A stretch of DNA of 59,888 nucleotides from a virus. A program made the translations under genes and the position numbers. The notes below the pieces were generated by a model. The model was not told where the DNA came from. It was given only the letters and a program-made list of their open reading frames with translations, and did not search any database. Location of the stretch: positions 1 to 59,888 of the IMG/VR virus record IMGVR_UViG_3300025132_004452. One strand, 5' to 3'. Shown piece after piece: positions 6,679 to 39,268 of this stretch (position 1 is the first letter of the stretch; every line of letters starts with the position of its first letter).

Positions 6679-8216
6679 GCTCGTAAGTTATTAATTACAC
6701 AATCAGTTGATAAAATAGTAGTAGCTACAGAAGCCGCATTTGTAAGTGCGCTTTTAGTAACAAGTAAAGGATCTATTATTCCGGACTTTACCATATTAAC
6801 CGTTTTTCCTGTAACCACATCTAATCCTTTACCTTTTACACTTGGAGTTTCATAATCATCAATACCAGCATTTTCCAGTATTAATCTATATGGAGCTGTT
6901 ATAGCTCTTAATAACACTTCTTCTGATAATGACTTAGGTATTATTTTTTGAGATGCATTTAATAATGCTATACCTCCTCCTGGCACTATACCTTCTTTAA
7001 TTGCGGCTTTTGTAGCACAGATAGCGTCTTCGACTCTATCTTTCTTTTCTTTTAATTCAACTTCAGAGTTAGCACCTATTTTTACAATAGCTACTTTAGC
7101 TAATAATCTAGCTAATCTTTTTTCAAGTCTTGCAACCATATTAGGATGCTTGACATTTGCTATTTGCTTTTTAATATTAACTATTAAATCATCAACAGCT
7201 TCTGGTATCTCTTCTAGTTGTAGTATAGTTTCTCCATTACCGGTTACACTTCTTAAACACTCGCCTAAGTGCTCAGGCTGTATGAGATCCATATTATCAC
7301 CTAAGTCCTCGTTTATTAAAGTAGCGCCAGTAAGTAATGCTAAATCATCTAAAGTATCTCTTTTATTTATACCGAAGGTTGGTGCATCTATTATGTTTAC
7401 TTTTATATTACCTTTAACCTTATTCATAGCAAGGGCTGTCATTACCTGAGGCTCTACGTCTGCTATGATTAATAGAGACTTATTGTTTTTTATAACATAT
7501 TCCAATACACCTTGTATTTTTCTTATGTTTTCAACTTTATTCTCTATTATAAGTACCACTGGGTTTTCTAACTCGGCCGTACCCTTTTCTTTGTTAGTAA
7601 CAAAATGACCATTAACAATGCCTTTGTCGTACTGTACTCCTTCTATTCTTTCAACAACTGTATCAGGATTTTCATGTGTTTCCATCATTACTATACCTGT
7701 TTCATCTACAGCTGCAAAAGCATCACTTATTATTTTACCTAGTTCTAAATCGTTATTAGCTGATATAGTAGCTACTTGTTTAATTGTATTTCCTTTTACG
7801 TTAGAGGAAATTTTGTCAAGATAATGCACTACTTTTTGAACAGCTAAATTAATACCTTTTTTTAAGTCTCTTGGACTTTGTGAATCGGTTACTTTATAGG
7901 CTTCTTTAAGTATAGCATGAGCCAATACTGTAGCTGTAGTCGTTCCGTCGCCTGCTTCTAATACTGTTTTTCTAGCAGCCTCTTTTAAAAGCTTAGCACC
8001 CATATTTTCTACTGGGTCTAAAAGAATAACACTATTAGCTACTGTTACTCCATCTTTTGTTATTTGTGGGCTACCACTTCCATCTTCAAGGATAACACAC
8101 TTGCCACTAGCCCCTAATGTGGAGCTAACAGCTTTAGTGAGTTTTTCTATACCTTGAAATATAGCATCTTTAGCTTCATCTCCGAAGTTAAGATGCTTTA
8201 CAATTGTTTCATTCAT
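6675..8216 (-). CDS. groEL: GroEL-like chaperonin (Cpn60)
   Basis: A 513 aa group I chaperonin, nearly full length. The ATP-site motif 'EAGDGTTTATVLA' carries the catalytic Asp (GroEL D87); 'ITKDGVTVA' and the second catalytic Asp (D398) in 'RVEDAICATKAAIKEGIVPG' are present. The flexible Gly-Gly-Met C-terminal repeats of bacterial GroEL are absent: it ends '...STDCVINNLRA'. Together with groES it forms a complete phage folding machine in the late operon, probably for capsid or giant virion proteins. It lies between a fibre/unknown pair and the winged-helix gene. Confidence 0.95.
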   Translation of the reverse strand: MNETIVKHLNFGDEAKDAIFQGIEKLTKAVSSTLGASGKCVILEDGSGSPQITKDGVTVANSVILLDPVENMGAKLLKEAARKTVLEAGDGTTTATVLAHAILKEAYKVTDSQSPRDLKKGINLAVQKVVHYLDKISSNVKGNTIKQVATISANNDLELGKIISDAFAAVDETGIVMMETHENPDTVVERIEGVQYDKGIVNGHFVTNKEKGTAELENPVVLIIENKVENIRKIQGVLEYVIKNNKSLLIIADVEPQVMTALAMNKVKGNIKVNIIDAPTFGINKRDTLDDLALLTGATLINEDLGDNMDLIQPEHLGECLRSVTGNGETILQLEEIPEAVDDLIVNIKKQIANVKHPNMVARLEKRLARLLAKVAIVKIGANSEVELKEKKDRVEDAICATKAAIKEGIVPGGGIALLNASQKIIPKSLSEEVLLRAITAPYRLILENAGIDDYETPSVKGKGLDVVTGKTVNMVKSGIIDPLLVTKSALTNAASVATTILSTDCVINNLRA

Positions 8217-8590: not shown

Positions 8591-10218
8591 GTTTTTAAAT
8601 CTATATAATATACAGTTCCGTTAATAGTTATCTTTAATTGTTTTGTTACAGAGGTTCCTGTACCTGTATTAACTATTGAATTTGTAATTCCGTTTAACTC
8701 TATTTCAGCAGTTGCTGCAGAAGCTCCTTTACCTATTGCTATACCATCAGTTGCAGCTGTTGCGCCACTACCTATAGCTACAGCATTGTTATCCTCTGCT
8801 CCAGTTGTAGTTGCTTGATAACCTATACAAACATTGTCTACCCCACTTGTTATTAATTTACCTGCTGTATATCCTAAGAAAGTGTTGTTGCCACCAGACG
8901 TTAATTCTCTACCTGACCTATAACCTGCCATAGTATTATTAGAGTATGTAGCTGTACCTGACGCGCCTTGACCAGAACCTGCACCTATAATAACGTTAGC
9001 ACCACCAGTAACATATTGTCCGGCTTGACCACCTATAGCAGTGTTTGCAGTACCAACCTGATTAAACTGTAAAGCATCTGAACCTACAGCAACAGTATAG
9101 TTGGAGTTAGTATTAGTTAATCCATCTAAAGAAAAGCCAGCGTTAGCACCTATTGCTACTATGTTGTTCAAAGTTTTACCAACAGAAGCTGCTCCAGCCT
9201 GATAACCTATTAAAGTGTTACTAGATCCATTAGTAGCATTTAATCCTGATTTAGAACCTAACGTAGTGTTGTATAATCCAGACTCATTAGAATATAAAGA
9301 CTTAAAACCAATAGTTGTGTTATCATCACCTGTATTGTTAGAAAATAATGCCTCTTGACCTATCGCTACATTTTCGTACCCTTCTGTTAGAGCTGCGCCA
9401 GATCTGTAACCTAATAATATATTACTATAACCTGTAGTAAGTGCATTACCACTACTATTACCTATTATTAAGTTACCTACTGGAGTACCTGATAAACCAG
9501 AAGGTATATTAATAAAATAAGCAGATGTACCTGATATTGTTACATCTGTTAATCCATTTAAGTTAGTTGCGCCACCTCCAGCTTGTGCTTGCCATGTTGG
9601 TGCACTTGAAGATCCTGTCGATGTAAGTACATAACCTACAGAGGAAGGATTAGCCACTACATTTAAAGCGCTAGTGCCATTACCTAAAATAACGCCATGG
9701 GTTGCAGCTGACACAAAACCAGTTCCACCTCTTGCAACACTTAAAGTACCTACCATAGAAGTAGCAGATAAATCAACTTGCATTTCTTGGCCATTGATTA
9801 TTAAACCACCATTAGCTAACAAGTCTGCTTGGATAACATCTGATGCTAATTGAGTGGCATCAATACCTGTGCCTGCTGTAAAGTTAGCTCCAGAAGGCGC
9901 TGACCAAGAACCATCAGCTCTTAAAAACGTAGATGTTTGTCCAGCTGCAGCAGAGCTAGGTACATGTCCTACATTAGCAGCTCCTGCAAAAGCGTTAGTT
10001 GTTAAAGTTACACCACCTGTAGGAGAACTCGCTACTAAAGCGTTACCTGTTGATGTTCCGCTAGCTATAGTAATACTAGACACACCAGCAGTAGAACCAC
10101 CTGGCAGACTAGAAACCTTAAGCTGCTTTGTTTTATTATTATCTGCAGAATCTGAAATTAATATTAAATCTTCATTTGCTGCCGCAGATTTTACTGGGTA
10201 TGAATATATTATTGCCAT
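8587..10218 (-). CDS. Large fibre/collar protein with YadA-head repeats
   Basis: A 543 aa protein. The N-terminus 'MAIIYSYPVKSAAANEDLIL' is an attachment end common to marine phage fibres. Residues ~110-240 contain beta-repeat connector modules ('ARGGTGFVSAATHGVILGNG'). From about 250 to 500 there are many YadA/Hep_Hag-type repeats: 'NLIIGNSSGNALTTG', 'NVAIGQEALFSN', 'NTTIGFKSLYSN', 'NTFLGYTAGKLITSG', 'NAVAIGSGATAATDGIAIG'. These build a trimeric beta-roll stalk. It likely binds the host surface or forms head fibres. The shared plan with 658-1662 suggests two receptor-binding proteins. Confidence 0.8.
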   Translation of the reverse strand: MAIIYSYPVKSAAANEDLILISDSADNNKTKQLKVSSLPGGSTAGVSSITIASGTSTGNALVASSPTGGVTLTTNAFAGAANVGHVPSSAAAGQTSTFLRADGSWSAPSGANFTAGTGIDATQLASDVIQADLLANGGLIINGQEMQVDLSATSMVGTLSVARGGTGFVSAATHGVILGNGTSALNVVANPSSVGYVLTSTGSSSAPTWQAQAGGGATNLNGLTDVTISGTSAYFINIPSGLSGTPVGNLIIGNSSGNALTTGYSNILLGYRSGAALTEGYENVAIGQEALFSNNTGDDNTTIGFKSLYSNESGLYNTTLGSKSGLNATNGSSNTLIGYQAGAASVGKTLNNIVAIGANAGFSLDGLTNTNSNYTVAVGSDALQFNQVGTANTAIGGQAGQYVTGGANVIIGAGSGQGASGTATYSNNTMAGYRSGRELTSGGNNTFLGYTAGKLITSGVDNVCIGYQATTTGAEDNNAVAIGSGATAATDGIAIGKGASAATAEIELNGITNSIVNTGTGTSVTKQLKITINGTVYYIDLKT

Positions 10219-12059: not shown

Positions 12060-12082
12060 ACACAACTACAATAAGATAATAT
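12051..12082 (+). promoter_or_regulatory. Early promoter family, member 2
   Basis: ACAAACTAAACACAA, then AGATAATATAAATATA; ACAA at 12051 and GATAATAT at 12075 (24 bases). The upstream box overlaps the stop codon of the gene before it. Confidence 0.75.
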
Positions 12083-12955: not shown

Positions 12956-12987
12956 ACAAACTAAATACAATAAGCAATAGATAATAC
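12956..12987 (+). promoter_or_regulatory. Early promoter family, member 4
   Basis: ACAAACTAAATACAA, then AGATAATACAAAT; ACAA at 12956 and GATAATAC at 12980 (24 bases). The ATG at 12992 lies only 5 bases after the -10-like box, which would make a leaderless or nearly leaderless mRNA. Confidence 0.75.
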
Positions 12988-13388: not shown

Positions 13389-13669
13389 AAGATACTAATG
13401 CAATAGAAAAAGCTATTATCGATAAAAGTAAACAAGAGATAGCTATAATAGTGGCAGACTTTATTACTAACGTTAATACTAAGCTTAGAAACAAGTACAA
13501 TGCATGTAGCTTTTACTACATCAAGCATCCTAATAGTGAACTAAAACAAATGTTTTCAGGTGATAACGAGTTAATGAAAGCATTATGTGCTACGTTAGAA
13601 GAAGGTCATATGAAAGCTATGGTGAATAAAAAATCAAAAGAATTACTAAACAAACTAGAACTAATATGA
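13385..13669 (+). CDS. Small early protein (94 aa), unknown
   Basis: Helical, charged: 'NAIEKAIIDKSKQEIAIIVA', 'FITNVNTKLRNKYNACSFYY', 'MKALCATLEEGHMKAMVNKK'. It overlaps both neighbours by 4 bases (ATGA), so it is in one coupled cistron set 13236-14012. No family recognised. Confidence 0.6.
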   Translation: MKDTNAIEKAIIDKSKQEIAIIVADFITNVNTKLRNKYNACSFYYIKHPNSELKQMFSGDNELMKALCATLEEGHMKAMVNKKSKELLNKLELI

Positions 13670-13863
13670 AAGAAATACAAGCAATAGAGGCTATAACAAA
13701 AGATATTCTAGCCGGATACTATGGTACTAAACAAAATGCAGGTACTGAAACACAGAAATGGCAATATGCTCACAACCAAGCTAAAAAAATATATAGTGGT
13801 GAATTACTAATAGATCCTGATCATACTTGGTTTGATGAAGGTAAACAACACGAAGCTATATGA
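13666..13863 (+). CDS. Small early protein (65 aa), unknown
   Basis: 'MKEIQAIEAITKDILAGYYG' and 'TETQKWQYAHNQAKKIYSGE', then 'DPDHTWFDEGKQHEAI'. Acidic, Tyr/Trp-containing. ATGA overlaps on both sides. No family recognised. Confidence 0.55.
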   Translation: MKEIQAIEAITKDILAGYYGTKQNAGTETQKWQYAHNQAKKIYSGELLIDPDHTWFDEGKQHEAI

Positions 13864-14012
13864 GTGATTTTAGAACAATACAAGACTATATGTCTTATGA
13901 AAAAGAAACTGCAATACCAAAACTAAGGTGGTTACAAGTAAATGAATTAGCAATAAAGTATCCAAACAATCAAGAGTTTGGTGCAGAAGTAAGAAAATTA
14001 ATTAACAAATAA
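13860..14012 (+). CDS. Small early protein (50 aa), unknown
   Basis: ATG 13860 overlaps the preceding TGA; TAA 14010-14012 directly precedes promoter member 5. The product 'MSDFRTIQDYMSYEKETAIP' with 'LQVNELAIKYPNNQEFGAEV' looks like a small helical domain. No family recognised. Confidence 0.6.
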   Translation: MSDFRTIQDYMSYEKETAIPKLRWLQVNELAIKYPNNQEFGAEVRKLINK

Positions 14013-14013
14013 T

Positions 14014-14045
14014 ACAAACTAAATACAAACACTTAAAGATAATAT
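14014..14045 (+). promoter_or_regulatory. Early promoter family, member 5
   Basis: ACAAACTAAATACAA, then AGATAATATAAATATA; ACAA at 14014 and GATAATAT at 14038 (24 bases). ATG at 14052 is 7 bases after the box. It should transcribe the 47 aa gene and the structured RNA at 14203-14313. Confidence 0.75.
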
Positions 14046-14051
14046 AAATAT

Positions 14052-14195
14052 ATGAAAACAATTAAATTTTATCCCAGTAACAGGTCAGTTATAAAACTAG
14101 ACGGCAAGAAAGTAAAAGGCTACACTATAGATAGCATACCAGATGACATTACATCTTGGTTTAATTACAAAGGTTTAACTTTTGTAGTCAACTAA
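14052..14195 (+). CDS. Small early protein (47 aa), unknown
   Basis: 'MKTIKFYPSNRSVIKLDGKK' then 'VKGYTIDSIPDDITSWFNYK'. Likely one small beta domain. Preceded by promoter member 5 with no room for a Shine-Dalgarno. Followed at 8 bases by the structured RNA region. No family recognised. Confidence 0.55.
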   Translation: MKTIKFYPSNRSVIKLDGKKVKGYTIDSIPDDITSWFNYKGLTFVVN

Positions 14196-14202
14196 AAGCA
14201 AA

Positions 14203-14313
14203 CTACTGCTATACGTAAAGGTATGCGGTAGGACTAAGTGACGGCTTAGTATGGACAGCGAGGTCAGGTTACACTGTTCTAGACATGAGAGGTTCGAATC
14301 CTCTCTCTCGCTC
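14203..14313 (+). ncRNA. Structured RNA ending in a tRNA T-arm/acceptor mimic
   Basis: No gene fits this ~110 nt stretch. Helix 1: CTACTGC-T-ATAC (14203-14214) pairs with GTATGCGGTAG (14221-14231) with one bulged U and one U-G, loop GTAAAG. Helix 2: ACTAAG (14233-14238) with CTTAGT (14245-14250), loop TGACGG. Then GCGAG (14258-14262) can pair with CTCGC (14307-14311), enclosing a canonical T-arm AGAGG-TTCGAAT-CCTCT (14288-14304). Only ~23 nt separate the acceptor 5' strand from the T-arm, too few for D and anticodon arms, so this is not a normal tRNA. Transcribed from promoter member 5. Confidence 0.55.
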
Positions 14314-14314
14314 T

Positions 14315-14530
14315 ATGAATAATAAATGTAAATGTGGAAACGAAATCCACCCAGTAAGAATTAAATACGGTTATAGTAACTGTGTAGCATGTTCTACAGT
14401 AGAAAAGTACGGTTGTGCACCAGTTATTAACCACAAAACAGGCAATAGCATAGAAATATTGTCTAGAGCAGATGCAGAGCGCATCGCTAAACTAACACGT
14501 CGTAAAGGTTACGGCACAATGCTAAGATAA
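14315..14530 (+). CDS. Small zinc-ribbon-type early protein (71 aa)
   Basis: The start is ATG 14315 ('MNNKCKCGNEIHPVRIKYGY'). An upstream in-frame ATG at 14285 lies inside the T-arm mimic and was rejected. 'CKC' near the N-terminus and 'SNCVACSTVEKYG' later could form a four-cysteine zinc site. 'APVINHKTGNSIEILSRADA' is a conserved-looking segment seen in other marine phage proteins. Probably nucleic-acid or RNA-polymerase binding, but this is inference. Confidence 0.6.
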   Translation: MNNKCKCGNEIHPVRIKYGYSNCVACSTVEKYGCAPVINHKTGNSIEILSRADAERIAKLTRRKGYGTMLR

Positions 14531-14531
14531 T

Positions 14532-14885
14532 ATGACAAAAGCAAGAACAATAAACGAAATAAGACAAACTAAAGAGTATTACACAGGTAACAGCAAGAAT
14601 CAAGATCAAGAAGCCACTAAACAAATGGTAGAGATAGATCGTCAAGAGTGTGAACTTGATCCTGTTGAAGAAGCTAAAACACTAATAGTAGACAAGATAA
14701 CTAAACACTTTCATGATGTAATGTTTGAAATGGTTAACAAAGAAATGAGTAAGTGCTACTTGTTTCAATCACAAAACTATCTAACTGAAGCGGGTTATGA
14801 GCTATTTGAAGATGAATACTTTGAATTCTACCACAATCATCACGGTGACATTATGTATGAAGTAATGCAAAATATTACAAACTAA
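14532..14885 (+). CDS. Early protein (117 aa), unknown
   Basis: Acidic and helical: 'MTKARTINEIRQTKEYYTGN', 'VEEAKTLIVDKITKHFHDVM', 'AGYELFEDEYFEFYHNHHGD'. Spacing of 1 base from the preceding stop. It ends in '..ITN' with its TAA inside promoter member 6, just as the 54 aa gene ends inside member 2. No family recognised. Confidence 0.6.
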   Translation: MTKARTINEIRQTKEYYTGNSKNQDQEATKQMVEIDRQECELDPVEEAKTLIVDKITKHFHDVMFEMVNKEMSKCYLFQSQNYLTEAGYELFEDEYFEFYHNHHGDIMYEVMQNITN

Positions 14886-14908
14886 ATACGATTACTAACA
14901 GATAATAT
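14877..14908 (+). promoter_or_regulatory. Early promoter family, member 6
   Basis: ACAAACTAAATACGA, then AGATAATATATATATG; ACAA at 14877 and GATAATAT at 14901 (24 bases). ATG 14913 follows the -10-like box by 5 bases. Confidence 0.75.
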
Positions 14909-14912
14909 ATAT

Positions 14913-15146
14913 ATGAAAACATTATATGACAAACTTAAACCAGAAATTAAAGCTAAACTCGAAGCTAACTACGCTGAAGGCTATGTTACAAGCATCGATA
15001 TTATCTTTAAACAATTAAAAACCAACAATAGATATAGTGCATTAACTATTGACGACGTTAAAACTTTAAATACATTTAGCGATGTATCTTTAGTTGAAAC
15101 TACTCAACTAGACTTAATGTATGGTGATCATCTATTTAATAACTAA
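14913..15146 (+). CDS. Small early protein (77 aa), unknown
   Basis: 'MKTLYDKLKPEIKAKLEANY' and 'GYVTSIDIIFKQLKTNNRYS', then an acidic end ('LVETTQLDLMYGDHLFNN'). Helical. Directly follows promoter member 6. 'KPEIKAKLEANYAEGYVTSI' resembles short helices in other phage early proteins, but no family is assigned. Confidence 0.55.
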   Translation: MKTLYDKLKPEIKAKLEANYAEGYVTSIDIIFKQLKTNNRYSALTIDDVKTLNTFSDVSLVETTQLDLMYGDHLFNN

Positions 15147-18298: not shown

Positions 18299-18916
18299 GA
18301 TAGAAATATAAAATATTTAAATGATAAAAGAATTATATACCGTACAACACCAACGGATAAACCAACTAAAGTTTATAGCTGGGGATTATATTACAAAGAT
18401 GGTACTTACCAATGTTATGATTTATTTAGGTCTAAAGCTAAAATAAATACTTATAAATCTTTAAAATGGCATTTATTAGTATTGTGGTATTTAAACCCTG
18501 AGCTTAATCCAGATCAATTTAAAAAACTAACGTATGTTTTAACTACTAAAGAAAATGGTTTTACTACTTTCAGCATATCAGATAATGTTTTAGAAAAAAT
18601 ATTACACGATGTGTATATGTCTGATCTTGAAGAACCACCAACTAATAGATTAAGAAAAATAATTTTTAATACTATGTGTGGTTTAACAGCTAAAGAAAAG
18701 CTAAAAATAGTAGGAAAGTTATCTGGCAAAAACAAAAAAGTACAACAAGATGATCTATATCAGAGCATGTTAGACATAAACGATATGGGTGTTAAAATAA
18801 CCATAAGTAATCTAGCTGAACTATTTAAATGTTCAAGTAGAACAATACATAGAAATATGGGCGAAGAGCTAAAAAGAGAAAAAGAATTATTAAATAAAGA
18901 AATTGAAAAAGTATAA
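18290..18916 (+). CDS. Helix-turn-helix DNA-binding regulator (208 aa)
   Basis: The C-terminal part 'VKITISNLAELFKCSSRTIH' plus 'RNMGEEL' (about residues 164-190) is a typical HTH: helix, turn, recognition helix. Residues 1-130 have aromatic-rich beta/helix sequence ('VYSWGLYYKDGTYQCYDLFR') of unknown fold. It is followed by the sigma-like gene, which overlaps it by 14 bases, so the two are probably a regulatory pair. The start has a strong Shine-Dalgarno and overlaps dyad copy C, suggesting autoregulation. Confidence 0.7.
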   Translation: MSYDRNIKYLNDKRIIYRTTPTDKPTKVYSWGLYYKDGTYQCYDLFRSKAKINTYKSLKWHLLVLWYLNPELNPDQFKKLTYVLTTKENGFTTFSISDNVLEKILHDVYMSDLEEPPTNRLRKIIFNTMCGLTAKEKLKIVGKLSGKNKKVQQDDLYQSMLDINDMGVKITISNLAELFKCSSRTIHRNMGEELKREKELLNKEIEKV

Positions 18917-19661
18917 TATTAAAAATTATATAAGATATAAAGAAGATATAAAACTAGCTATTCAAAAAATACCAGTTAAAAACTTTGTTGATTATACTAA
19001 TAAAGAACTAAAAATAATATTCTTACCTTTAGTAGAAAACGTTGCAAGAAAATTTTCAACCGCTCAAGAAGCTTCAGGTGTTATGTCTATAATGGATTTA
19101 ATACAAGAAGGTAGTATACAACTTTGCAAAGCTGTTGATAAAATAGATAGAGAAAAGTTAGCCGATTCAGATGATGTAGCTAAAACTCTAAAATCATTTT
19201 TTGCAAAAAGAGTTAGAGGTGGAATACGTAGAGAAATAGATAGAAACAGAGCTCAAATGCGTATACCAGAGCATAAACTAAACGAGATAAGAAAAGACGG
19301 TGGTAAAGATAAAAAAATGGTTGCTATGTTTTTTAATTCAATGTTTTTAAGTATAGATAATAAACCTTACGAAGATGATGATATGATATATCAAATACCT
19401 GATAAATCAGATCCTTATAATGAAGACATGTTAAATGCTTACATAATGAGCTTATTAACTAAACATCTTGAATGGAAAGAAATGTTTACATTAGAAAAAA
19501 GCTATGGTTTAACAGGTCCTAAATGGTCTGCTAAAGAAATAGCTGATAAATTAGATATACACGGAGTATCATCTTATGTAAGAGTTTCAGAGTTAAAAAG
19601 ACAAGCAGTCGACAAACTTATAGAAAATGTAGATCACTCGCAAGTGGTTGACTTTCTGTAA
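18903..19661 (+). CDS. Sigma-70-family-like factor, TTG start
   Basis: A 252 aa protein. 'SIMDLIQEGSIQLCKAVDKI' (region 2.1-2.2, core RNAP binding), 'LKSFFAKRVRGGIRREIDRN' followed by 'RAQMRIPEHKLNEIRK' (region 2.3-3-like, -10 recognition and melting) and 'WSAKEIADKLDIHGVSSYVR' then 'VSELKRQAVDKLIE' (region 4-like HTH) support a sigma factor. The first codon is TTG at 18903; no ATG fits upstream of the conserved part. It could direct host RNAP to the late convoy. Which promoters it reads is unknown. Confidence 0.8.
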   Translation: MKKYNIKNYIRYKEDIKLAIQKIPVKNFVDYTNKELKIIFLPLVENVARKFSTAQEASGVMSIMDLIQEGSIQLCKAVDKIDREKLADSDDVAKTLKSFFAKRVRGGIRREIDRNRAQMRIPEHKLNEIRKDGGKDKKMVAMFFNSMFLSIDNKPYEDDDMIYQIPDKSDPYNEDMLNAYIMSLLTKHLEWKEMFTLEKSYGLTGPKWSAKEIADKLDIHGVSSYVRVSELKRQAVDKLIENVDHSQVVDFL

Positions 19662-20232: not shown

Positions 20233-20960
20233 AAAGAAAAGAAATAATAGATAAGCTTAGAATTGATGAGCATTACTATGGTAATTTTGGTAAACAGTAT
20301 TTAAGTAACTCAGATATATCTACATTACTTAAAAACCCATTAGCTTTAAAAGAGCCTAGTAAATCAAATGTTCATTTTTTGATAGGAGGTTATTTTCACA
20401 CTGCTATATTAGAACCAAACAAAATTAAGAATTTTAAAATTGTTGAGTCTAGTAGTAGGAACACTAAAGCATATAAAGAAATGTCTGGTGGTGAAATGTG
20501 CTTACTGCAACATGAAGTAGATAAGACTGAAGCTCTAGTTCAAAAGCTTATGGATAACAAAGTCTGCAGAGACCTCATCTCAGAAGAAAAAGGAGAATAT
20601 GAAGTACCTGCTATTACCGAGCTCTACGGTCAAATGTGGAAAGGTAAAGCTGACATTGTTAACCACAATGAAAAATTAATAATAGATCTTAAAACAACTT
20701 CTGATCTTGATAACTTTAAATGGAACGCTAAGAAATATAATTATGATTCTCAAGCATACATTTACAGTAAGTTATTTGGTTATGAGTTCGTGTTTATAGC
20801 AATAGACAAAAATTCAGGTCAAATAGGTTTATTCGACTGTTCAACTAACTTTTATAAGTCAGGTGAGTTAAAGGTTGAAAAAGCATCAGAAGCATACGAT
20901 TTATTTTATAACACAGAGGGATTTGACCCTCACCAATATTTTATAAACCAAACCTTATAA
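20229..20960 (+). CDS. PD-(D/E)XK exonuclease (RecE/exonuclease VIII-like)
   Basis: A 243 aa protein. 'HFLIGGYFHTAILEP' (conserved G-x-x-x-H near 60), 'MWKGKADIVNHNEKLIIDLK' plus 'TTSDL' (Asp then D-L-K catalytic core), and 'AKKYNYDSQAYIYSKLFG' (Y-x-x-Q-x-x-x-Y helix) match RecE/Cas4-like nucleases. It would resect dsDNA ends for the ERF protein. Coupled to erf by an ATGA overlap and followed by an SSB at 1 base. Confidence 0.85.
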   Translation: MKRKEIIDKLRIDEHYYGNFGKQYLSNSDISTLLKNPLALKEPSKSNVHFLIGGYFHTAILEPNKIKNFKIVESSSRNTKAYKEMSGGEMCLLQHEVDKTEALVQKLMDNKVCRDLISEEKGEYEVPAITELYGQMWKGKADIVNHNEKLIIDLKTTSDLDNFKWNAKKYNYDSQAYIYSKLFGYEFVFIAIDKNSGQIGLFDCSTNFYKSGELKVEKASEAYDLFYNTEGFDPHQYFINQTL

Positions 20961-29548: not shown

Positions 29549-29807
29549 CTCTATTTTGTTTAGTCATTTCTTTACACCATTCTCTAAGCTCTTGTATTTC
29601 ATCTTCAAGATCTTTTATATGGTTTGTTTGCCATTGTTGTTTTAAATCATATTCTATTCTATCTATAACAGCCTTAGGCATTTTTTTAGCTTCTTCTATA
29701 TCACTTTGTAGAGTGAAGTACATTCCCATGAATGACGATGTTACTACTATTATACTAACAATAGTTTTTAAATCTAATCTAAATTCGGTGCTTTCTCCTA
29801 TTTTCAT
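29529..29807 (-). CDS. Membrane-anchored coiled-coil protein (92 aa), spanin-like
   Basis: 'MKIGESTEFRLDLKTIVSII' and 'VVTSSFMGMYFTLQ' form one TM segment (about residues 14-34), followed by a periplasmic-type coiled-coil 'IKDLEDEIQELREWCKEMTK'. This plan resembles i-spanin/Rz-like or other envelope proteins. Its start overlaps the giant gene stop (ATGA). Confidence 0.55.
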   Translation of the reverse strand: MKIGESTEFRLDLKTIVSIIVVTSSFMGMYFTLQSDIEEAKKMPKAVIDRIEYDLKQQWQTNHIKDLEDEIQELREWCKEMTKQNRDGNKKR

Positions 29808-32800
29808 TTTTTCATTAGCTCTATAAGTTTTGCTACTCTATCTTTTTCGTATCTTAATGCACGAATCTGTTTCTTGCTTAAACCTAAACTATCTAAAATT
29901 TCAACTTGTCTAGGTTTTTTTAATTTTTTATACTTAGTAACTTCTTTTTGCTTGTTTTCTACATCTATGTCTTTTTGTGTTAATAGTTTTTTAGGCGAAT
30001 ATTGACCTTCATTATCTCTCTTAGCTTTCATTCTCTTTCTATAAGCTGACTTAGCTTCTTTTTGAGAATCTATATATTCTTTTCTTTCTTCAGTAGAATT
30101 AAGCTGATAATCTTTCCAACCTAATAAAAGAGATATTCTTTTCCAAGTTTGCTGTTCATCTTCTAAAGCACTTCTAACATTTTCTGATTTACTTATTAGT
30201 CTATCAACAGGAACGTTAGTCAGTCCTGATATAACATATGCAGCTGATTTATAAGCAGGATCATCTATACTCCATTTAGCTTCATCATGTTTATAACCTT
30301 CGTACTTCCAAGTTAAACCAGCTTGTCTAAGCTTACTTAGTTTTATATCTATAGGAGGAGAAAAGTTTAACATTTCATTTGCAGCGTCTTCGTAGTTAGG
30401 ACCTGGAAAAGTACCTTCTTTTTTAGACTCTTTGTATACTTTTCTACCAACTGATATTAATGTAGATAAAGCAACTCCATATATACCTGTACCATTTAAC
30501 ACCGTATTTAACATACCATTGGCTACATTTAAATATCTTTCGTTTTCACTTTCTTCTTCCTCTTCTTCATTAAAAGCTAATGCGAATAAACCTTGTTGTA
30601 AGGCTGAAAATATCATACTTTGTACAGCCATATAATAAGTAACTCTTGATATGTTACTCACATCACTTTGGAACTGTGTCATTCCTTTACGCTTTCTTCT
30701 GTTTATCAAATCTAAGAAAGATTTTTTACCTAACCTATTCATTTGCATAGGTGTATTTTGAAAAGCTAATATTAACCTACCTAAAGTACTCGCTTGTTGT
30801 TGTGACACTCTATCTGGACGAGATGATTGCTGTGACTCTTCTGCTATTTCTCTAAATTCTAAAAACGCTTGTTTTTTAGCATCAGCCTCACTCATACCTT
30901 CCTTCATTAAAGCATTTATTCTATTCCTATAAAATGTAGCACCACCTGATGCAATAGCAAAACTATCTGCAAATTGTGTTGGTAAGTAACCTTTAGAAAG
31001 TATATAAGCTATAGCTGCTTTAGCTTTATTTTTACTTGTAGCTGCAGCATCTGCTATTTCAGATTCACTCACGTTTAATTTTAACCCATTACGTCTTTCA
31101 ACCAAAAACTCAGAGTTCATTAACTCAGAAAAATCTTTCCAATATTGAGTTTGATTAGCAAAAGCTTTACCAGCATTATATATATTATTACTACCAAAGT
31201 CGATAAAGTTAACAGCTGATATAGTCTGAAGTAAAGCTGATCTCATGTTAAAAAACATAACTGTACCAACAGAATTATTAATATAATCTAACAATCTATT
31301 TTCTATTTTACCCATTTTGTTAGATCTGTTTCTACCAGACTTCATCCTAGAAATCATATCTTCCATAGCGTCTCTCCAGTTAGTACCAAAAGCAGCTTCC
31401 ATCTTGTTAAGATTTTTAGGTGAAAATATTAAATCAATATTATCTTGCCATTCTTGTAAGTACTTACTTCTTTTACCTGTTCTAAGACCGTCTAATAAAT
31501 CAGTTGATATAGTACCTGCTAACCAATTGGCTGTTGGCGCGGCGTAACCGTCACCTTTGTTTATGTCAATTAAGTTTTGAGCAAAAACATCTATAGCTTG
31601 GTTTTTCTTAGCAAAGGCTAACACTTGTTTTAAATCTGCTTTAGATATTCCTGGTATATCCATACCTTGTTTGTTCCACGCTAATATTCTAGCTACATCA
31701 GAGTGAGTGAATTCACCAAATGCTATTTTATTTAAGTTCTTAGGTATTAAACCCTCTTTAATTAGCTGCTCTTTTAAAACTTTAAAGTCATTGATCATTC
31801 TATTTTGATCACGAGATAAGTTTTCCATAGCTCTACCGTAAGGTTCAATTAAATGCTTATTGAAAAAGTCCATTTGCATGTTACCTATTTCACCTTTGCC
31901 TAACATAGAATATAATAAACCTACAAAATCCTCTGCAGAAGGTGGAATAAATAGTTTAAACTTACCTTTTTTTCTACCTACAAGTCTTGCTTTAACATCT
32001 GAATATTCTTTTTCAGATTTTATACCAGTTTTGTGTTCTATAATATCATTTACAGTTTGATCTACGGTTTTACTAAATTTAATTTTAGCTTGTTGCACTG
32101 CTGACTTAACATCTATAACACTTAAAGCATCTTTAACCGCTTGCACGTTTTGTATAGCATCATCTGCAAAATAAAAATCATTATAACCCTCAGCAGCTTT
32201 ATTAACTACCCAGTTAGCTTTAGCAGCACCTGTAGAGTTACCTAGACCAGTTATATTTTTTAAAGGTATATTAAGACCTAAACTATCTAAAAACTCTTTA
32301 ATTGCAGCTTGTGACTCAGGAGCTCTTGCTGTTAGCACAAAAACATCTTCTGTTCCTCTAGCTGCTTGTATTTTTTTAGCAACGTCTAATAATGGACCTG
32401 GCTTACCATCTCTAACTATATTGAAGTCACTAAAGTCAAACTCACCTCCTTCATTTAATATCTCTCCACCTCGTTCTGCAAATTCCTCAGCCGTTAATGT
32501 ACCTTTAGTTCCATCAGGCATAGTATAAAATACATTACTTTTTGTTCTTGCTAAAGTATCGTCAAAGTCGAACACTCTTATTTTTTTAACAGGAGCGTTA
32601 GGATCTCTAGCTATATCTAAAGCTTTATCCATCATATTAGCTTGCTCTATAGTCTGTTTATTAGTTTTAGTTTTAGAAAAAGGAGTAACACCACTATTTG
32701 ATTGAGATTTCTCATTAGCTTGAGTTGCTTCGTGTTGAGATTTTGCTAAAGCCAAGTGAGGTTTTAATATTTCATTTGCTATTTTAGAAGTAATTTGTCC

Positions 32801-35800
32801 ATCAAATATTTCAAATAATAATTGTTGTTGAATTTTTATAATACCAGGTGTTTGTAAATCTTTACTTACTTCTAAACCAAATTCTTTAGCTATTGAATTA
32901 CCATTAGACAATATAATAACATTAGGATTTATACCAGTGTGTTGATCACCATTTTCATCTATTCTAACTTGACTATTTACATTAGAGTTAAAATATCTTA
33001 TCCATACTGGTTTTAATCCTAACAATACGTCTGCTACATATTGAGAAGGAATATTTTTAATATAATCAAATTTAATTCCATCCGGTCCAACACCTTTTAA
33101 CATGCCGTCGTAAACTTTAGGTAAAGCTCCTTGAAAAAACGATTCTAAGGCTGGATCTATATATTGTTCTACATTATCTTGTGCCATTCTGTTTAATAAA
33201 AATTTCATTAAATCAGATGCAGGTTCTGTATGTTCTTCTACGTTTTTTAAATTAAGAGTATTTCCAAATTCTATAATTGAACCTGTTCTCCCAAAGTGAT
33301 TTTGAGAACCACTAGTAGAAGATAAAAGCCCTGCTACAACAGGTAAGAATTTAGCTTTATCAAACTGAACAGCGTCATTTAAAGACATGATTAATTCTTT
33401 AAAACCATCTCTTTTATTAATTTGCTCTTGCGTAAACTTAGGAGTACCTAACTCTCTTTGCATTTTAGCACTATAACCTTGTCTCTTAACAGCTTCTTTT
33501 ATATTTTTACTAGTTTCTACACCTTTGTCATCTATCTTAGTTTCTAAAGCAAAAGTATTTCCTCTTTTTTTAGCTTCTGCTATAGCGTTTTTTACTTGAA
33601 GAGCGTTAGCGAATAAAAACGTTCCTACAGGAGCGATTTTTAATTGAACTGATTTTTTAACAAAATCTTCATCTGAGTTTAATATTGTAGATCCATCAAT
33701 TAATTTATATTCTCTAAGGGTTTCTGTAGGTTTATTTAATAATCCATTTTTTTGTAAACGTTTTTTAACTTTAACACTTAGTGGAGTTCCAAGATTTACA
33801 TTATCTCCACCATTAGATAATGTTCCAGCCGTTAAAGCTGATTCAGGTAGGAAATTTATTAATGCACTGTTTTTATCAAAAAATATTTTATCTATAAGTT
33901 CTTTTTTACCCTCAGGAGTGTTTGCATCTATAGCGTCAAGATCATAGTTAGTTACTATTTCTTTAAAGTCCGCTTGCTCAGCTAGTAGTTGTGGACCAGG
34001 GTCGGCTTGAAACAAGTATGCTGTTTTAGCAATAGCTTTACTTTTAGCCTTTGGTAATTTAATTTTAATTTTACCACTATCTTCTACTATTCCCAATAAA
34101 GTGTTAGAATATAAGTTTAAGACTTCTTGTACGTTTTGATTTTTAGAAGATATATAACTTTTAATCAATTCACTTAAATCTTTTCCGTTTTCTATTTTAT
34201 TAATAATGTTTGAACCTTGTAAAAACTGTTCTAAGTTATTGATTTCATTTAAAACCTCGTACTGTTGTAGATTAGTTTTATTTGTTTTACTAAATTTAGA
34301 ACCAGGCACTCTATCAATATTCTTACCTACAACCGCTGTGTAATTCTCAGCTTGTCTTAATCCTTGTAACTCATAAATATCTTTAATTCTGTTTTGCACA
34401 GCTGGATCTTCTAAAACCTCCATAGTAGCGTCAAACGCTAACTCTTGAGCTATAGCACCTGCTAACGCATCTTTTCTAGTTCCTTTAGTCGATGCTCCTA
34501 CGTTTGAGCCTAGAAAATAATCCATAAACTCTGATCTCTTAACGTCTTTCTTTCTAAATAAAGGATTATTATCTGGTCTAGCTTGTTTACCTGTGGCTGG
34601 ATCAATTAATGGCTCTACAAACTGTCTAAATCGTTTGTTAGCGGTTGATTGTGATATAGCATTAAACACTGTTTGAAAGTTTTCACTTAAGAAAGTTTCA
34701 TAATTAGCTCTAGTACCTATAAACTTTTTTATCTCCTTAAACAATTCTTTGTCAAAAGCTTTTTTAAGATCTTCTCTAAACTTTTTATTGCTTACCTCAG
34801 GTAATTTAGTTCCAAGAACTTTACGCACAGAGTCTAAAACCTTATTATATATAGGTCCACCTTTCTCTATACCTAATTTAGTTCTCATGTTATCTATAGT
34901 ATCCTCTACTATATTAGCATCAATTCCAGCTTCGATATTAGTATCATCTGCAATAGTTTCTCCTATAGTTCTACCTTCTTCACCTAGCTTTTGATCTGTA
35001 GATACTTGTACGCCTGGTTTCTTAGCCTTTTCCCTCTTAGCTTTGTTAGTTACATCACCTACACGTCTGCCAATATAAGAGTTCATCCAAGCAAATAAAC
35101 TGTCATTTTTACTAGGGTCAAAACTCATTAAGTGATCAGCTAGCTTATCTCTAGTTTCTTGTATAATATTCTCTCTACTCTTGTCGTATATAGTTTGACC
35201 AGTAGCCATTTTATCTATAATGAGTCCATCAAACTTGCCTTGACTAATAGCTGTATACACTTTGCTAAATGCTCTATCTTTATCTTGAAGAAACTCGGCT
35301 TTAGTCATTTTATATTTGCCATCTGGACCTTTAGGACCTGGAGCTTCATTGGTTAAGTCTGTTAGCTCTGATCTTTCAGCTTTAGTTAAAGATAGTTTAC
35401 TTTTACTAACAGGTTTAGAATCTTTTTTAATTGTTTTCTTTTTACGAGATATTTCAGCAGTACCTTCAGCTATTGATTTAGTTAAACCACTTAGCTCACC
35501 TGTTTCAAAAGAATTATTATAACTAGTAATCATGTCAAATACATCTTTACCAGTTTTTATTTGTCCTGATCCATCATTAAATTTCTGAAACCTACCAAAC
35601 ATCTTATTGTACAAAGTTCTATCTGCTTCTAAATTATTCTGTCTCATAAAATCACTAAGCCTAGCTAAGCTTTCTTCAGCTACTAAAGTGGGGTTAGATA
35701 AATCACCTTTTGAGTCATACTCTCCATATAATTCTTTAGTTTCTAAAAAGTTTTGATATGCTTCTTTATAGTTTTTCTTAACATATGACTCAAGATCTTG

Positions 35801-38800
35801 AACTAAACCTACAGCATCAGGATTGTTTTCCATAAATTGCTTAAACAACGTATGGTGACCTATTTCATGAGATTGTACTGTAGAATTATTTCTGTTTAAA
35901 GCAAAAGTTATAGGTAGATTTATATTTTTAGTACCTTTACTACCGTCTTCGTTTGTAACTTCAATAGTTAGATTATCACCAAAAGCCATACCATTAACAG
36001 TTGCATCGCCTCTTGAAGCTTTGTCAGCTACTTCAAACTGCTGCTTCATTAATTCTTTTACTTGTAGCTTTTCTGAATCGTTTAAATCAGTTCTACTATC
36101 TACATATTCTAAACCTGCATCTAGAGCTTGTTTGTTGTTGTCACCAACAACCATTTCTACATTACCTAAAGTACCGTTTTTAGCTCTATAAGCATCAGCA
36201 AACTTTTTAGCTCTACCCTTATCAGCACTCCACTCTGCATTACTTAAAGTAAAATTCTTAACTGCTTCAACGGCCTTTAGTTCAATTAGCTGTTTGTTTA
36301 TAAGATCAGCTGCTGTTTTTTCGTCAAGATTTTTATCACTGTTTATTTTATCTATTTCAGATCTTATCTTGTGCTCAGCATTGAAACCATTTATTAGTCT
36401 TTGTCTATCTTCTTTAGTTAAAGACATTATTTCAGATCTAACTTTTTCTTGATCAGCTAATTGTTCTTTTGCTAGATCATGCATTTGTTTCTCTACTAAA
36501 GCCTTAGACTTAACTATAGCATCATGAGCTCCTGTTTTAGGCGTTAAACCAGCTAATTGCGTTTCATAACCTTTTATGGTATTACTTAATCTTAATATCT
36601 CTTTTCCTCTTTCTGCTATTTTAGCATTTCTATCAGGACCTCTAAAAGCTTGATATGTTTGTGCGACTAAACCAGGTGATTGCATAGTGCCAGACATTAC
36701 TAAACCAGAAACCATAGATTCAGTAAAACCATCTAGCATAGATACGTCTTTATTGCCTAGTATATATATCTCAGCAGCATTTTGAGATAGAGTAACAGCT
36801 CCTTCACCAAACGCTTCACCTGGAACACCTTTGACAAAATCTTTAGCACCTTCTTTTAAGTTTAACCATCGTTGATTAATCTTATTAGATATTGGCGAAC
36901 CTTTTTTAGCCACTTTGCTTAAGTCAAAAGCTTTTCTTAAATTTTTAGCACCTAGTTTAAAGTTGCCTAAAGTTATTTTTTCACTTGCATATTCAGCTAT
37001 ACCATAAATTCCAGCTGTACCATAAAATTGTAAAGCATTTATTTCTTCTGGTTGAATTTTATAAGTTTCATCATCACCTAAAGGATTAAAGCCAAACTCT
37101 TTTTTGAAATCTTGTATATATTTCATTTCGTTTAAGTTCCACTTTTCACCTTCCATACGCTTTTTCATATCGTACATTTGGTTACCACTTTCACTTAGTG
37201 CAGAAAGCACTAGACCACCACCGCCAGGAACTACTATTGATAAACCAGTGTTAAGTAATTGACCAGTTAGCATTTCAGTACCCCATCTCATACCGGCTTT
37301 AATACCATCTATTTCATCAAATCTTGCAGCAGGTCTATTTCTATTCAATAACTCTTCACCAAACTCAGAAGATTTTTTAAGCAAGTCATCAGCGGTTTCA
37401 TCTGCAAAGTTAGCAACATCCATAGCTAAGTTTACAGCATCACCTCCAGTTTCTCCAAACACATCATATGAAAAGTCGCTTATAGCTTTTACAGTGTCAT
37501 CATCTTTTAAGTCAAATCCAACGTGTTCTAAAACATTTAAAGGATTTGAAACTTCATTTAAAACAGCGCCTAGACCAGTAACTATTCTTACAGCGCTATT
37601 AGCAAGAATATTTTCATGGATTTCTAAAACGTTATATGTTTTTTGAGTTTTATCTATTATAGCTTGAGCATTATTTCCTTCAAACTGTATATTTCCTAAA
37701 AACTCCATATCAGCTTTTATATTTTTTTCAGCTAATATTACACTATTTTTTATGCTATTAAACTGATCAACGTCTTTTTGAGTTGCGTTAGGATCATTTT
37801 CTATTTTCTTTTTTAAATCATTTAATTTCGCGGCTTGAGCCAATATATTAACAGATTGCCCCTCGATGTTGTTGAGTATAACATTGGCTTCGTAATCACT
37901 GGTTTTGTTACTTAATTCTAATAGTCTTCCTAGATCTTTTTTATTTTTTTGATAATCTTCCCTAGAGTTTTCCATTCCTAAAACCTCATCAGCAGTAGTG
38001 TTAAAAAGTTTTTCAGCAATCTTCTTTTGTATAATAAACTGAGGAGCACTAGAGACAAGATTAACCACGTTGTTCCAAGCACCAACTCCTTGTTTATCTT
38101 CAAAAGTTTCTAAGGCTTCATCTATTGTATCTCTAACTTTTTTTGAATCAAGTTTTTCTTCAGATATTAAAGAAGTAGCAGACATTCTACTTGTTAAATC
38201 TAATAATTCAGGGCTTATATTTATATCTTTTACTAACTCAGGGTTTTTTGTTACCTCTTGTATAGAAGGTAAATATATTAACTCATTGTCAGTTCCTAAA
38301 CTAGCAACTGCATCATCTTTGTTTGTTGTTGTTTTTTTACCAGTCTTTTTTATATCAATAACCATATCCTGGTATTGATCTAAAAAGTTTTTTGTTAATT
38401 CATTTGATTTTCTACTAGCTTGCTTAGCCCAAGTAGTTGAATCAGAGCCTTTTCTACTTTCATTATTGCTCAAAGGTTTTAATTTCCAAGTAGCTGCATT
38501 ATTTGGATCGTATTTTTCACCATACCATTTCTTAGCTAGTTTATTATATGATATATCTTTCCATCTTTTTTTATTACTATCTATAGGTAAAGATCTATTA
38601 ATAAGATCTTGATTCTCCTCTTTGTTAGCCAATGCATATATTAAAGAAGACCCAACGTATTTACCACCAGACTGTTGTAATAAATTAGCATTTTTTAAAG
38701 ATTCTTTTTTCTGTGTTATTTTTTCATTAATTTCTTCATCAGTTGCTTGGGTTTCTATTTCAATGTTTTTTAACAATTTAGCAGCTGTTAATCTATCATT

Positions 38801-39268
38801 TCCTCCACTTCCTGACATTAAACCAACGAATTCTTTTCTTTCGGCTTGTACTTCTGCTATTTTTTTAGCTAATTTATCTCCTACAAGTGGTTCACCATTT
38901 TCATCTTTAGCTATTGTTTGGTTTGGTTTTTGTAATAGCTCTAAATACTGATCGTATTCTTTAGTATCAAAAGCATCGTCTTCAACATCAAATTGACTTT
39001 TAACTTCAATATTTTCTTCTTCACCGTCTTTTTTACTGCTTTTTTCAAAATTTAATATACGAGTTTCAAAAGTTTTAAATTTATCTTCATCACTCTCGCC
39101 TTCCATTCTTTGTATAAAAGTATCGTCAATAGAATCTAATGTGTTATATACATTACTTAAAAAACTATCATCATTTTTTATTCTTGATTTAAAATCAGTT
39201 ATAGTAAAGTTTGAATCATCAAAAGTTAATGTTTCAAATATTTCTGAAGCGTAGTCTTTTTCTTCCAT
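29804..39268 (-). CDS. 3154-aa polyvalent/internal virion protein with metallopeptidase, sigma-like and HAD segments
   Basis: One ORF of 9.5 kb. Segments seen: H1134-E-I-G-H1138-H zinc-peptidase motif ('STVQSHEIGHHTLF') with a possible third ligand in 'VAEESLARL'; a sigma-70 region-2-like stretch from about F1383 ('FDPSKNDSLFAWMNSYIGRR', later 'STDQKLGEEGRTIGETIADD'); a HAD phosphatase core with D2234-F-D2236-D-T2238, 'VLTARAPES' and 'FADDAIQN'; a C-terminal helical segment (about 2670-2990) of polyvalent-protein type. Several Gly-rich or hydrophobic stretches near 640-900 suggest membrane contact. It follows the portal-to-muzzle genes and may be injected with DNA. Confidence 0.7.
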   Translation of the reverse strand: MEEKDYASEIFETLTFDDSNFTITDFKSRIKNDDSFLSNVYNTLDSIDDTFIQRMEGESDEDKFKTFETRILNFEKSSKKDGEEENIEVKSQFDVEDDAFDTKEYDQYLELLQKPNQTIAKDENGEPLVGDKLAKKIAEVQAERKEFVGLMSGSGGNDRLTAAKLLKNIEIETQATDEEINEKITQKKESLKNANLLQQSGGKYVGSSLIYALANKEENQDLINRSLPIDSNKKRWKDISYNKLAKKWYGEKYDPNNAATWKLKPLSNNESRKGSDSTTWAKQASRKSNELTKNFLDQYQDMVIDIKKTGKKTTTNKDDAVASLGTDNELIYLPSIQEVTKNPELVKDINISPELLDLTSRMSATSLISEEKLDSKKVRDTIDEALETFEDKQGVGAWNNVVNLVSSAPQFIIQKKIAEKLFNTTADEVLGMENSREDYQKNKKDLGRLLELSNKTSDYEANVILNNIEGQSVNILAQAAKLNDLKKKIENDPNATQKDVDQFNSIKNSVILAEKNIKADMEFLGNIQFEGNNAQAIIDKTQKTYNVLEIHENILANSAVRIVTGLGAVLNEVSNPLNVLEHVGFDLKDDDTVKAISDFSYDVFGETGGDAVNLAMDVANFADETADDLLKKSSEFGEELLNRNRPAARFDEIDGIKAGMRWGTEMLTGQLLNTGLSIVVPGGGGLVLSALSESGNQMYDMKKRMEGEKWNLNEMKYIQDFKKEFGFNPLGDDETYKIQPEEINALQFYGTAGIYGIAEYASEKITLGNFKLGAKNLRKAFDLSKVAKKGSPISNKINQRWLNLKEGAKDFVKGVPGEAFGEGAVTLSQNAAEIYILGNKDVSMLDGFTESMVSGLVMSGTMQSPGLVAQTYQAFRGPDRNAKIAERGKEILRLSNTIKGYETQLAGLTPKTGAHDAIVKSKALVEKQMHDLAKEQLADQEKVRSEIMSLTKEDRQRLINGFNAEHKIRSEIDKINSDKNLDEKTAADLINKQLIELKAVEAVKNFTLSNAEWSADKGRAKKFADAYRAKNGTLGNVEMVVGDNNKQALDAGLEYVDSRTDLNDSEKLQVKELMKQQFEVADKASRGDATVNGMAFGDNLTIEVTNEDGSKGTKNINLPITFALNRNNSTVQSHEIGHHTLFKQFMENNPDAVGLVQDLESYVKKNYKEAYQNFLETKELYGEYDSKGDLSNPTLVAEESLARLSDFMRQNNLEADRTLYNKMFGRFQKFNDGSGQIKTGKDVFDMITSYNNSFETGELSGLTKSIAEGTAEISRKKKTIKKDSKPVSKSKLSLTKAERSELTDLTNEAPGPKGPDGKYKMTKAEFLQDKDRAFSKVYTAISQGKFDGLIIDKMATGQTIYDKSRENIIQETRDKLADHLMSFDPSKNDSLFAWMNSYIGRRVGDVTNKAKREKAKKPGVQVSTDQKLGEEGRTIGETIADDTNIEAGIDANIVEDTIDNMRTKLGIEKGGPIYNKVLDSVRKVLGTKLPEVSNKKFREDLKKAFDKELFKEIKKFIGTRANYETFLSENFQTVFNAISQSTANKRFRQFVEPLIDPATGKQARPDNNPLFRKKDVKRSEFMDYFLGSNVGASTKGTRKDALAGAIAQELAFDATMEVLEDPAVQNRIKDIYELQGLRQAENYTAVVGKNIDRVPGSKFSKTNKTNLQQYEVLNEINNLEQFLQGSNIINKIENGKDLSELIKSYISSKNQNVQEVLNLYSNTLLGIVEDSGKIKIKLPKAKSKAIAKTAYLFQADPGPQLLAEQADFKEIVTNYDLDAIDANTPEGKKELIDKIFFDKNSALINFLPESALTAGTLSNGGDNVNLGTPLSVKVKKRLQKNGLLNKPTETLREYKLIDGSTILNSDEDFVKKSVQLKIAPVGTFLFANALQVKNAIAEAKKRGNTFALETKIDDKGVETSKNIKEAVKRQGYSAKMQRELGTPKFTQEQINKRDGFKELIMSLNDAVQFDKAKFLPVVAGLLSSTSGSQNHFGRTGSIIEFGNTLNLKNVEEHTEPASDLMKFLLNRMAQDNVEQYIDPALESFFQGALPKVYDGMLKGVGPDGIKFDYIKNIPSQYVADVLLGLKPVWIRYFNSNVNSQVRIDENGDQHTGINPNVIILSNGNSIAKEFGLEVSKDLQTPGIIKIQQQLLFEIFDGQITSKIANEILKPHLALAKSQHEATQANEKSQSNSGVTPFSKTKTNKQTIEQANMMDKALDIARDPNAPVKKIRVFDFDDTLARTKSNVFYTMPDGTKGTLTAEEFAERGGEILNEGGEFDFSDFNIVRDGKPGPLLDVAKKIQAARGTEDVFVLTARAPESQAAIKEFLDSLGLNIPLKNITGLGNSTGAAKANWVVNKAAEGYNDFYFADDAIQNVQAVKDALSVIDVKSAVQQAKIKFSKTVDQTVNDIIEHKTGIKSEKEYSDVKARLVGRKKGKFKLFIPPSAEDFVGLLYSMLGKGEIGNMQMDFFNKHLIEPYGRAMENLSRDQNRMINDFKVLKEQLIKEGLIPKNLNKIAFGEFTHSDVARILAWNKQGMDIPGISKADLKQVLAFAKKNQAIDVFAQNLIDINKGDGYAAPTANWLAGTISTDLLDGLRTGKRSKYLQEWQDNIDLIFSPKNLNKMEAAFGTNWRDAMEDMISRMKSGRNRSNKMGKIENRLLDYINNSVGTVMFFNMRSALLQTISAVNFIDFGSNNIYNAGKAFANQTQYWKDFSELMNSEFLVERRNGLKLNVSESEIADAAATSKNKAKAAIAYILSKGYLPTQFADSFAIASGGATFYRNRINALMKEGMSEADAKKQAFLEFREIAEESQQSSRPDRVSQQQASTLGRLILAFQNTPMQMNRLGKKSFLDLINRRKRKGMTQFQSDVSNISRVTYYMAVQSMIFSALQQGLFALAFNEEEEEESENERYLNVANGMLNTVLNGTGIYGVALSTLISVGRKVYKESKKEGTFPGPNYEDAANEMLNFSPPIDIKLSKLRQAGLTWKYEGYKHDEAKWSIDDPAYKSAAYVISGLTNVPVDRLISKSENVRSALEDEQQTWKRISLLLGWKDYQLNSTEERKEYIDSQKEAKSAYRKRMKAKRDNEGQYSPKKLLTQKDIDVENKQKEVTKYKKLKKPRQVEILDSLGLSKKQIRALRYEKDRVAKLIELMKK

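Follow-up and report, generated by a model that had tools for sequence, protein, structure and literature searches.

Positions 14203–14315 on the plus strand of the window (the whole stretch of viral DNA analysed here, 59,888 nucleotides of IMG/VR record IMGVR_UViG_3300025132_004452) hold two hairpins followed by what reads as the top half of a tRNA without its remainder, which raises the question of what such an RNA would do in a phage transcript. The element is flanked by two small ORFs on the same strand. The upstream one (14052–14195, 47 amino acids) has its stop 7 nt before the first hairpin, H1 (14203–14231), which is built of stems of 7 bp (CTACTGC/GCGGTAG) and 4 bp (ATAC/GTAT). Hairpin H2 (14233–14250) has the sequence ACTAAG-U-GACG-G-CTTAGT with GACG as its loop. 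The tRNA-like structure (TLS) is composed of the acceptor 5' strand GCGAGG (14258–14263), a 24-nt linker (14264–14287), the T-arm AGAGG-TTCGAAT-CCTCT (14288–14304), the unpaired C14305 at position 66 and the acceptor 3' strand TCTCGC (14306–14311). The linker carries a D-loop-like GG (14267–14268) and the segment ACTGTTCTAGACATG, may form a CAG/CTG stem (14265–14267/14274–14276) and is the site of a variable insert in relatives. The discriminator U73 (U14312) and the trailer C-U-A run to 14315, the final A being the first base of the next ATG. This start codon, 2 nt after the discriminator, opens an ORF of 71 amino acids (14315–14530) whose product is cysteine-rich and zinc-ribbon-like by eye.

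The original prediction, made from this sequence alone, described three consecutive strong helices, the last a T-arm beneath an acceptor-like stem, and all of them are present. The minimum free energy (MFE) of 14203–14314 is -39.9 kcal/mol (z -2.99 versus shuffles), while the core of H2 and TLS by itself has a z of -1.0. When compared with the 7-bp acceptor and T-arm of the canonical tRNA (RF00005), the T-arm is perfect and the acceptor has 6 bp plus a U·C mismatch at 7:66. The T-arm alone is modest evidence because 0.11 T-arms of this quality are expected by chance per window, both strands included, in Markov sequences of the window composition. The 24 nt between acceptor and T-arm are too short for D and anticodon arms, which are therefore absent, as had been proposed; with only an acceptor stem, a D-loop-like GG and a T-arm kept, the TLS cannot decode.

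Known RNA families do not account for the element. A canonical tRNA was rejected: ARAGORN finds 0 tRNA genes in the window and RF00005 has no match at E ≤ 10 in 14150–14350. No Rfam family matches at the gathering threshold, and at E ≤ 10 the same interval has weak matches only, including 17 nt of the cyano_tmRNA model (E 2.9). The tRNA-like domain of tmRNA shares the acceptor and T-arm, the reduced D domain and the neighbouring pseudoknots, but the window element, unlike tmRNA, has no recognised tag ORF, no ARAGORN tmRNA call and no Rfam match at threshold. A Y RNA of the YrlA type was set aside: PF05731 (Ro60/TROVE) finds no match in the window record, which may be a fragment, and neither does Rfam. 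An alanine minihelix is not found either, the window having G3:C70 and the listed TLSs of the wider group described below no G3:U70 (by eye). A D-armless CUA suppressor tRNA was rejected because its TTCTAGA loop would be closed by only 2 bp. The core pattern has no match in the genome collection (genome_contigs), and on this ground an attachment site derived from a tRNA was rejected, as was a host RNA. The TLS class is probably undercounted, since it is missed by ARAGORN and Rfam.

By sequence similarity the window phage is related to viruses of marine flavobacteria. Among named phages its large terminase is closest to that of an uncultured podovirus (63% identity) and of Flavobacterium elemo phages (44%), followed by Cellulophaga phages (36–37%) and a Tenacibaculum phage (31%). 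A DNA search of named phages with the 1.4 kb around the RNA (window 13600–15000) gave no match. Exact core patterns identified in IMG/VR at least 17 distinct members of the window class, the window (L009) included, which corresponds to at least 16 other contigs. The terminase has a homologue with 77–90% identity in 15 of 16 such contigs, the sixteenth being a 13-kb fragment; in a wider set, the terminases of 18 of the 19 records tested are 72–82% identical to that of the window. Pattern matches in unrelated DNA (L013, L014, L136, L137) were dropped, and duplicates of window-class contigs (L138–L147) were left out of the T-arm and acceptor counts. A scan with GACGG..GGANAGCGAGG yielded, among the matches listed, mostly coding DNA and added a single member, L044.

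The core of the element is kept nearly letter for letter in the 17 distinct members, window included, so that chance is excluded, while the insert varies freely. All share H2, the string GGANA-GCGAGG-U-CAGGU (with two substitutions in L001 and one in L044), ACTGTTCTAGACATG, the T-arm and the acceptor 3' strand. H2 shows compensatory changes: both sides vary in 6 of the 26 predicted pairs of the class, and all 6 lie in H2. Within the class the only acceptor change is a switch from G-C to G-U at a single pair in 4/17 members, so that the acceptor is supported there by conservation and not by covariation. The insert, 3' of CAGGU, can be a few nt or as long as about 70 nt, and it often folds into a stem of its own. 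H1 is not conserved and is dispensable: 13/17 members have a three-tier or related stem in its place, three (L001, L002, L005) have none, and the hairpin of the window is a different one. In several members ORF ends similar to that of the window's 47-residue ORF precede the RNA (by eye). Note that ACTGTTCTAGACATG (window 14273–14287, just 5' of the T-arm) is invariant in 17/17 members and contains the palindrome TCTAGA; conserved pairing beyond its CTG was not demonstrable across them. A GGACAG/CTGTTC pairing was also considered and is not kept in L015–L018. D and anticodon arms are absent from 17/17 members, so that these relatives do not show a decayed full-length tRNA, the outcome named as a refutation in the original prediction. 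In the window class the sequence is conserved far past the needs of nuclease recognition, which suggests a specific partner in addition to a nuclease.

The window RNA is, on comparison of these sequences, one of a large group of tRNA mimics incapable of decoding. A search with the downstream 71-residue protein gave 45 loci. Perfect T-arms were counted in 35 of them outside the window class (L148–L182, 259 kb, near-duplicates included): 50 lie on the plus, coding strand and 0 on the other, where 0.4 would be expected on both strands together. Some of the 50 belong to ordinary tRNAs (tRNA-Arg, tRNA-Ala) and most do not. Removal of duplicates left 45, of which 43 have a C-W trailer (with N73 chosen among three offsets) and 35 are non-tRNA elements; because ordinary tRNAs were recognised by a TAGCT string in the D-arm, a few may remain among the TLSs, e.g., in L209. 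One acceptor rule was applied to the 35 elements: six acceptor bases, 2–4 nt, GG, T-arm, acceptor 3' strand, N73 and C. All six acceptor pairs form in 27 of them, five in 5 and four in 3, versus 6% with six pairs when the 3' strands are re-paired among elements. The rule had been set after viewing the elements and was therefore tested on 12 unseen loci (11 of the 19 from the pseudoknot pattern, on new contigs, plus L188), in which 12 of 15 new elements have six of six pairs (controls 5.5%). Looser matching is unconvincing, with at least six pairs in 23 of 37 elements versus 28% in controls. Distinct acceptor strands number 20 in the first set and 13 in the unseen one. The window TLS obeys the same rule (GCGAGG, UCA, GG).

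In the smallest elements 10 nt of linker join an acceptor of six pairs to the T-arm, and the MFE of such minimal TLSs is not unusually stable. Acceptors often start with A or U, and two TLSs lie in tandem in L162 and L175 (by eye). The covariance model of the window class matches other TLS classes weakly (best E 8e-4 in 60 loci), and what is common to the group is thus a shared design, not a proven common descent. A class of long TLSs, seen in L156 (6444), L157 (6295), L171 (5901), L174 (6939), L175 (6073) and L181 (6352), combines the acceptor AGCTTG with a variable insert and with a fixed CCTGACGAGGTG 5' of the T-arm, often behind a small hairpin; this class may correspond to that of the window. 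The CTGACGAG motif in long elements of relatives was also considered as hammerhead-like, a reading rejected because GAAA does not occur in the order required (by eye).

Upstream of the TLSs of relatives, 11 aligned elements share a hairpin A, with a conserved TGAAGTGCTGATTAG-like loop, and an H-type pseudoknot that ends a few bases 5' of the TLS. In this structure 96.7% of the alignment cells pair and both sides change in 15 of 25 pairs, values reached in 0/500 shuffles (1/500 for pair types), and slid versions are 29–52% paired; the structure was derived from the same 11 sequences, so the slide control leans its way, and relatedness among the sequences is lost in the shuffles. The model matches many further loci (searches over 46 and 19 loci) and has no match in the window. 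A hit in the genome collection, L190, looks like coding sequence and has no T-arm. L188, found with a pseudoknot pattern, carries another TLS. One window-class phage, L011, has the pseudoknot unit together with a TLS. In L010 (about 9116–9176), L007 (about 7222–7282) and L140 (about 1732–1788) the pseudoknot stands upstream of small genes with no TLS, and has therefore a role of its own. In L140 it begins directly after a promoter-like motif, as a 5'-terminal leader.

The placement of the elements points to a function in transcript processing. The next ATG lies 2 nt after N73 in 9/17 window-class members, three other TLSs and one real tRNA-Arg, and 14–61 nt after it in the other 8/17 members; a leaderless message is for this reason not a general outcome. 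Across elements the distance spans 2 to more than 100 nt. The base after N73 is C in the TLS elements, and no CCA is encoded there; in the tRNA-type rows of Cellulophaga phage phi38:1, C follows N73 in 23/23, one of which reads CCA. An orthologous gene slot, compared in 12 loci, is occupied by pseudoknot and TLS (L148–L150), by the pseudoknot alone (e.g., L010, L140), by a tRNA-Glu (L016) or by none of them. All 50 T-arms counted lie on the coding strand, between genes, as in tRNA punctuation, and the acceptor plus T-stem-loop geometry of tRNA-like elements processed by RNase P is found in the window and in the group TLSs. According to excerpts of one source, hairpins of acceptor, T-stem and T-loop are efficiently cleaved by RNase P, whose substrates include the phage M3 and C4 RNAs, a plant-virus tRNA-like structure and mRNAs (PMC11143913).

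In the model that we favour, the cut at the 5' side of the acceptor would be made by host RNase P, and the one after the discriminator by a 3' nuclease that acts on tRNAs (RNase Z or exonucleases). The TLS would then act as punctuation in a dense operon, separating an upstream message left ending in H2 (the pseudoknot in relatives) from a downstream message that would be leaderless, starting at or beside its AUG. This reading is preferred because of the parts that are kept, among them a GG that could contact the T-loop, the C after N73, the intergenic position on the coding strand with abutting ATG, and the shared gene slot. The tandem TLSs, the six-pair acceptors of the wider group and the retention of the TLS in 17 members while the insert varies also count for it. 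Acceptors that start with A or U, instead of the G common in RNase P substrates, count against it, as do the class-wide sequence conservation, the ATG distances, the pseudoknot standing alone and the unexceptional MFE stability of minimal TLSs. On balance, there is about an even chance that the TLS is a site of RNase P and 3' nuclease punctuation in phage transcripts. The broader proposal is more tentative and falls somewhat short of that: purpose-built, decoding-incapable mimics may constitute a tRNA-punctuation system whose interchangeable modules of hairpin or pseudoknot plus minihelix would mark gene boundaries, at which host RNase P and 3' nucleases would divide a polycistronic early transcript into leaderless, 3'-protected messages, with real tRNAs able to fill the same slots. 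The original prediction thus stood for the structure, an RNA shaped as a tRNA top half and plausibly a substrate of tRNA-processing enzymes, and had missed both the abutting start codon and the membership in a large group.

That prediction had also named decoy, regulator or 3'-end protection as roles, none of which is specifically supported as the main one. A small stable regulatory or decoy RNA, either the entire RNA or the TLS cut out of it, would titrate through T-arm and acceptor an enzyme of the host that binds tRNA or a defence that targets it. We consider this unlikely. The strong conservation of the window class, extending to the unpaired ACTGTTCTAGACATG, and the placement in the early region agree with such a role, and phage tRNAs blunt tRNA-targeting defences according to excerpts of two reports (PMC11555353, PMC10264068). 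However, the anticodon loop that is the usual target is absent, acceptor strands vary freely among elements, the G3:U70 pair of the alanine minihelix is in no listed TLS, and a decoy does not need exact abutment to start codons.

The position of TLS or pseudoknot immediately 5' of start codons would suit a cis-acting element for translation or mRNA stability, an uncut folded leader that recruits or blocks ribosomes or nucleases, as would the L140 pseudoknot positioned directly after its promoter-like motif. The wide range of ATG distances fits poorly with such an element, which does not require a tRNA-type trailer or T-arm, and a real tRNA fills the same slot in L016; this element is a doubtful candidate. 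An improbable reading takes the TLS as the 3' domain of a larger functional ncRNA, loosely like tmRNA or the MALAT1 3' end, in which it would make or protect the 3' end. It has in its favour the strong covariation of hairpin A and pseudoknot upstream of relatives' TLSs and the conservation of H2 in all window-class members, but the upstream parts differ by class, H1 is dispensable and the pseudoknot occurs without TLS. Finally, a decayed tRNA, a tRNA-derived attachment site or a chance structure is highly improbable in spite of the perfect T-arm, given the stripped form of all 17 members, the core pattern unmatched in the genome collection and the dozens of other elements in related phages that share the stripped plan with covarying acceptors; an element that is one of a large group of decoding-incapable mimics is not a decayed tRNA.

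Several known systems resemble the TLS in part. Artificial RNase P minihelices also consist of acceptor stem, T-stem and T-loop in a coaxial helix of 11–13 layers without D and anticodon arms. The TLS differs from them in being natural, phage-encoded and intergenic, with a 6-bp acceptor usually followed by a 7:66 mismatch and a GG-bearing linker. In mitochondria, intergenic tRNAs guide the cutting of polycistronic RNA; that punctuation uses real tRNAs, whereas the elements described here are mostly mimics incapable of decoding and reside in phages. The 3' tRNA-like structures of plant viruses and MALAT1 mascRNA combine tRNA mimicry with a neighbouring pseudoknot or other 3' structure. Unlike these, which lie at the 3' end of a genome or lncRNA, the phage TLS is internal to an operon of a DNA phage. 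The phi80 M3 RNA and P1/P7 C4 RNA are not known to have a full T-arm with a TTCRANY loop. They are likewise non-tRNA phage RNAs, listed as RNase P substrates in excerpts of PMC11143913. No description of such phage elements was found among titles and abstract beginnings of the PMC literature, a source from which subscription journals are mostly missing. We know of no described phage family of RNAs made of little more than acceptor and T-arm.

RNase P biochemistry leaves room for natural RNAs that contain hardly more than a tRNA acceptor and T-arm. If processed, they would show how the operons of a phage can be organised by the most conserved RNA enzymes of its host, would provide very small natural substrates for study and would offer a testable reason for phages to keep tRNA genes. 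If the broader proposal is true, tRNA carriage by phages would be linked with RNA processing in addition to codon supply. In phi38:1 (L186), ARAGORN misses T-arms on the minus strand near 20686 and 26814 that have perfect or partial acceptors and inserts near 108 nt. An annotated tRNA splicing ligase (RtcB) gene follows directly on the first, so these long-insert T-arms may be intron-bearing phage tRNAs.

Early transcription of the element, part of the original prediction, agrees with its location close to where the rightward gene run of the window begins. The motif ACAAACTAAATACnA-N10-GATAATA, which ends a few bases short of start codons, recurs at window positions 12962, 14020, 14883 and 16257 and in a weaker form at 12082. 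It resembles a phage promoter from which leaderless or near-leaderless mRNAs would be made. A protein similar to sigma-70 region 2, just under the Pfam cut-off, is encoded at 18903–19661. On the minus strand, 29804–39268 is a single ORF of 3154 amino acids that takes up about 16% of the window.
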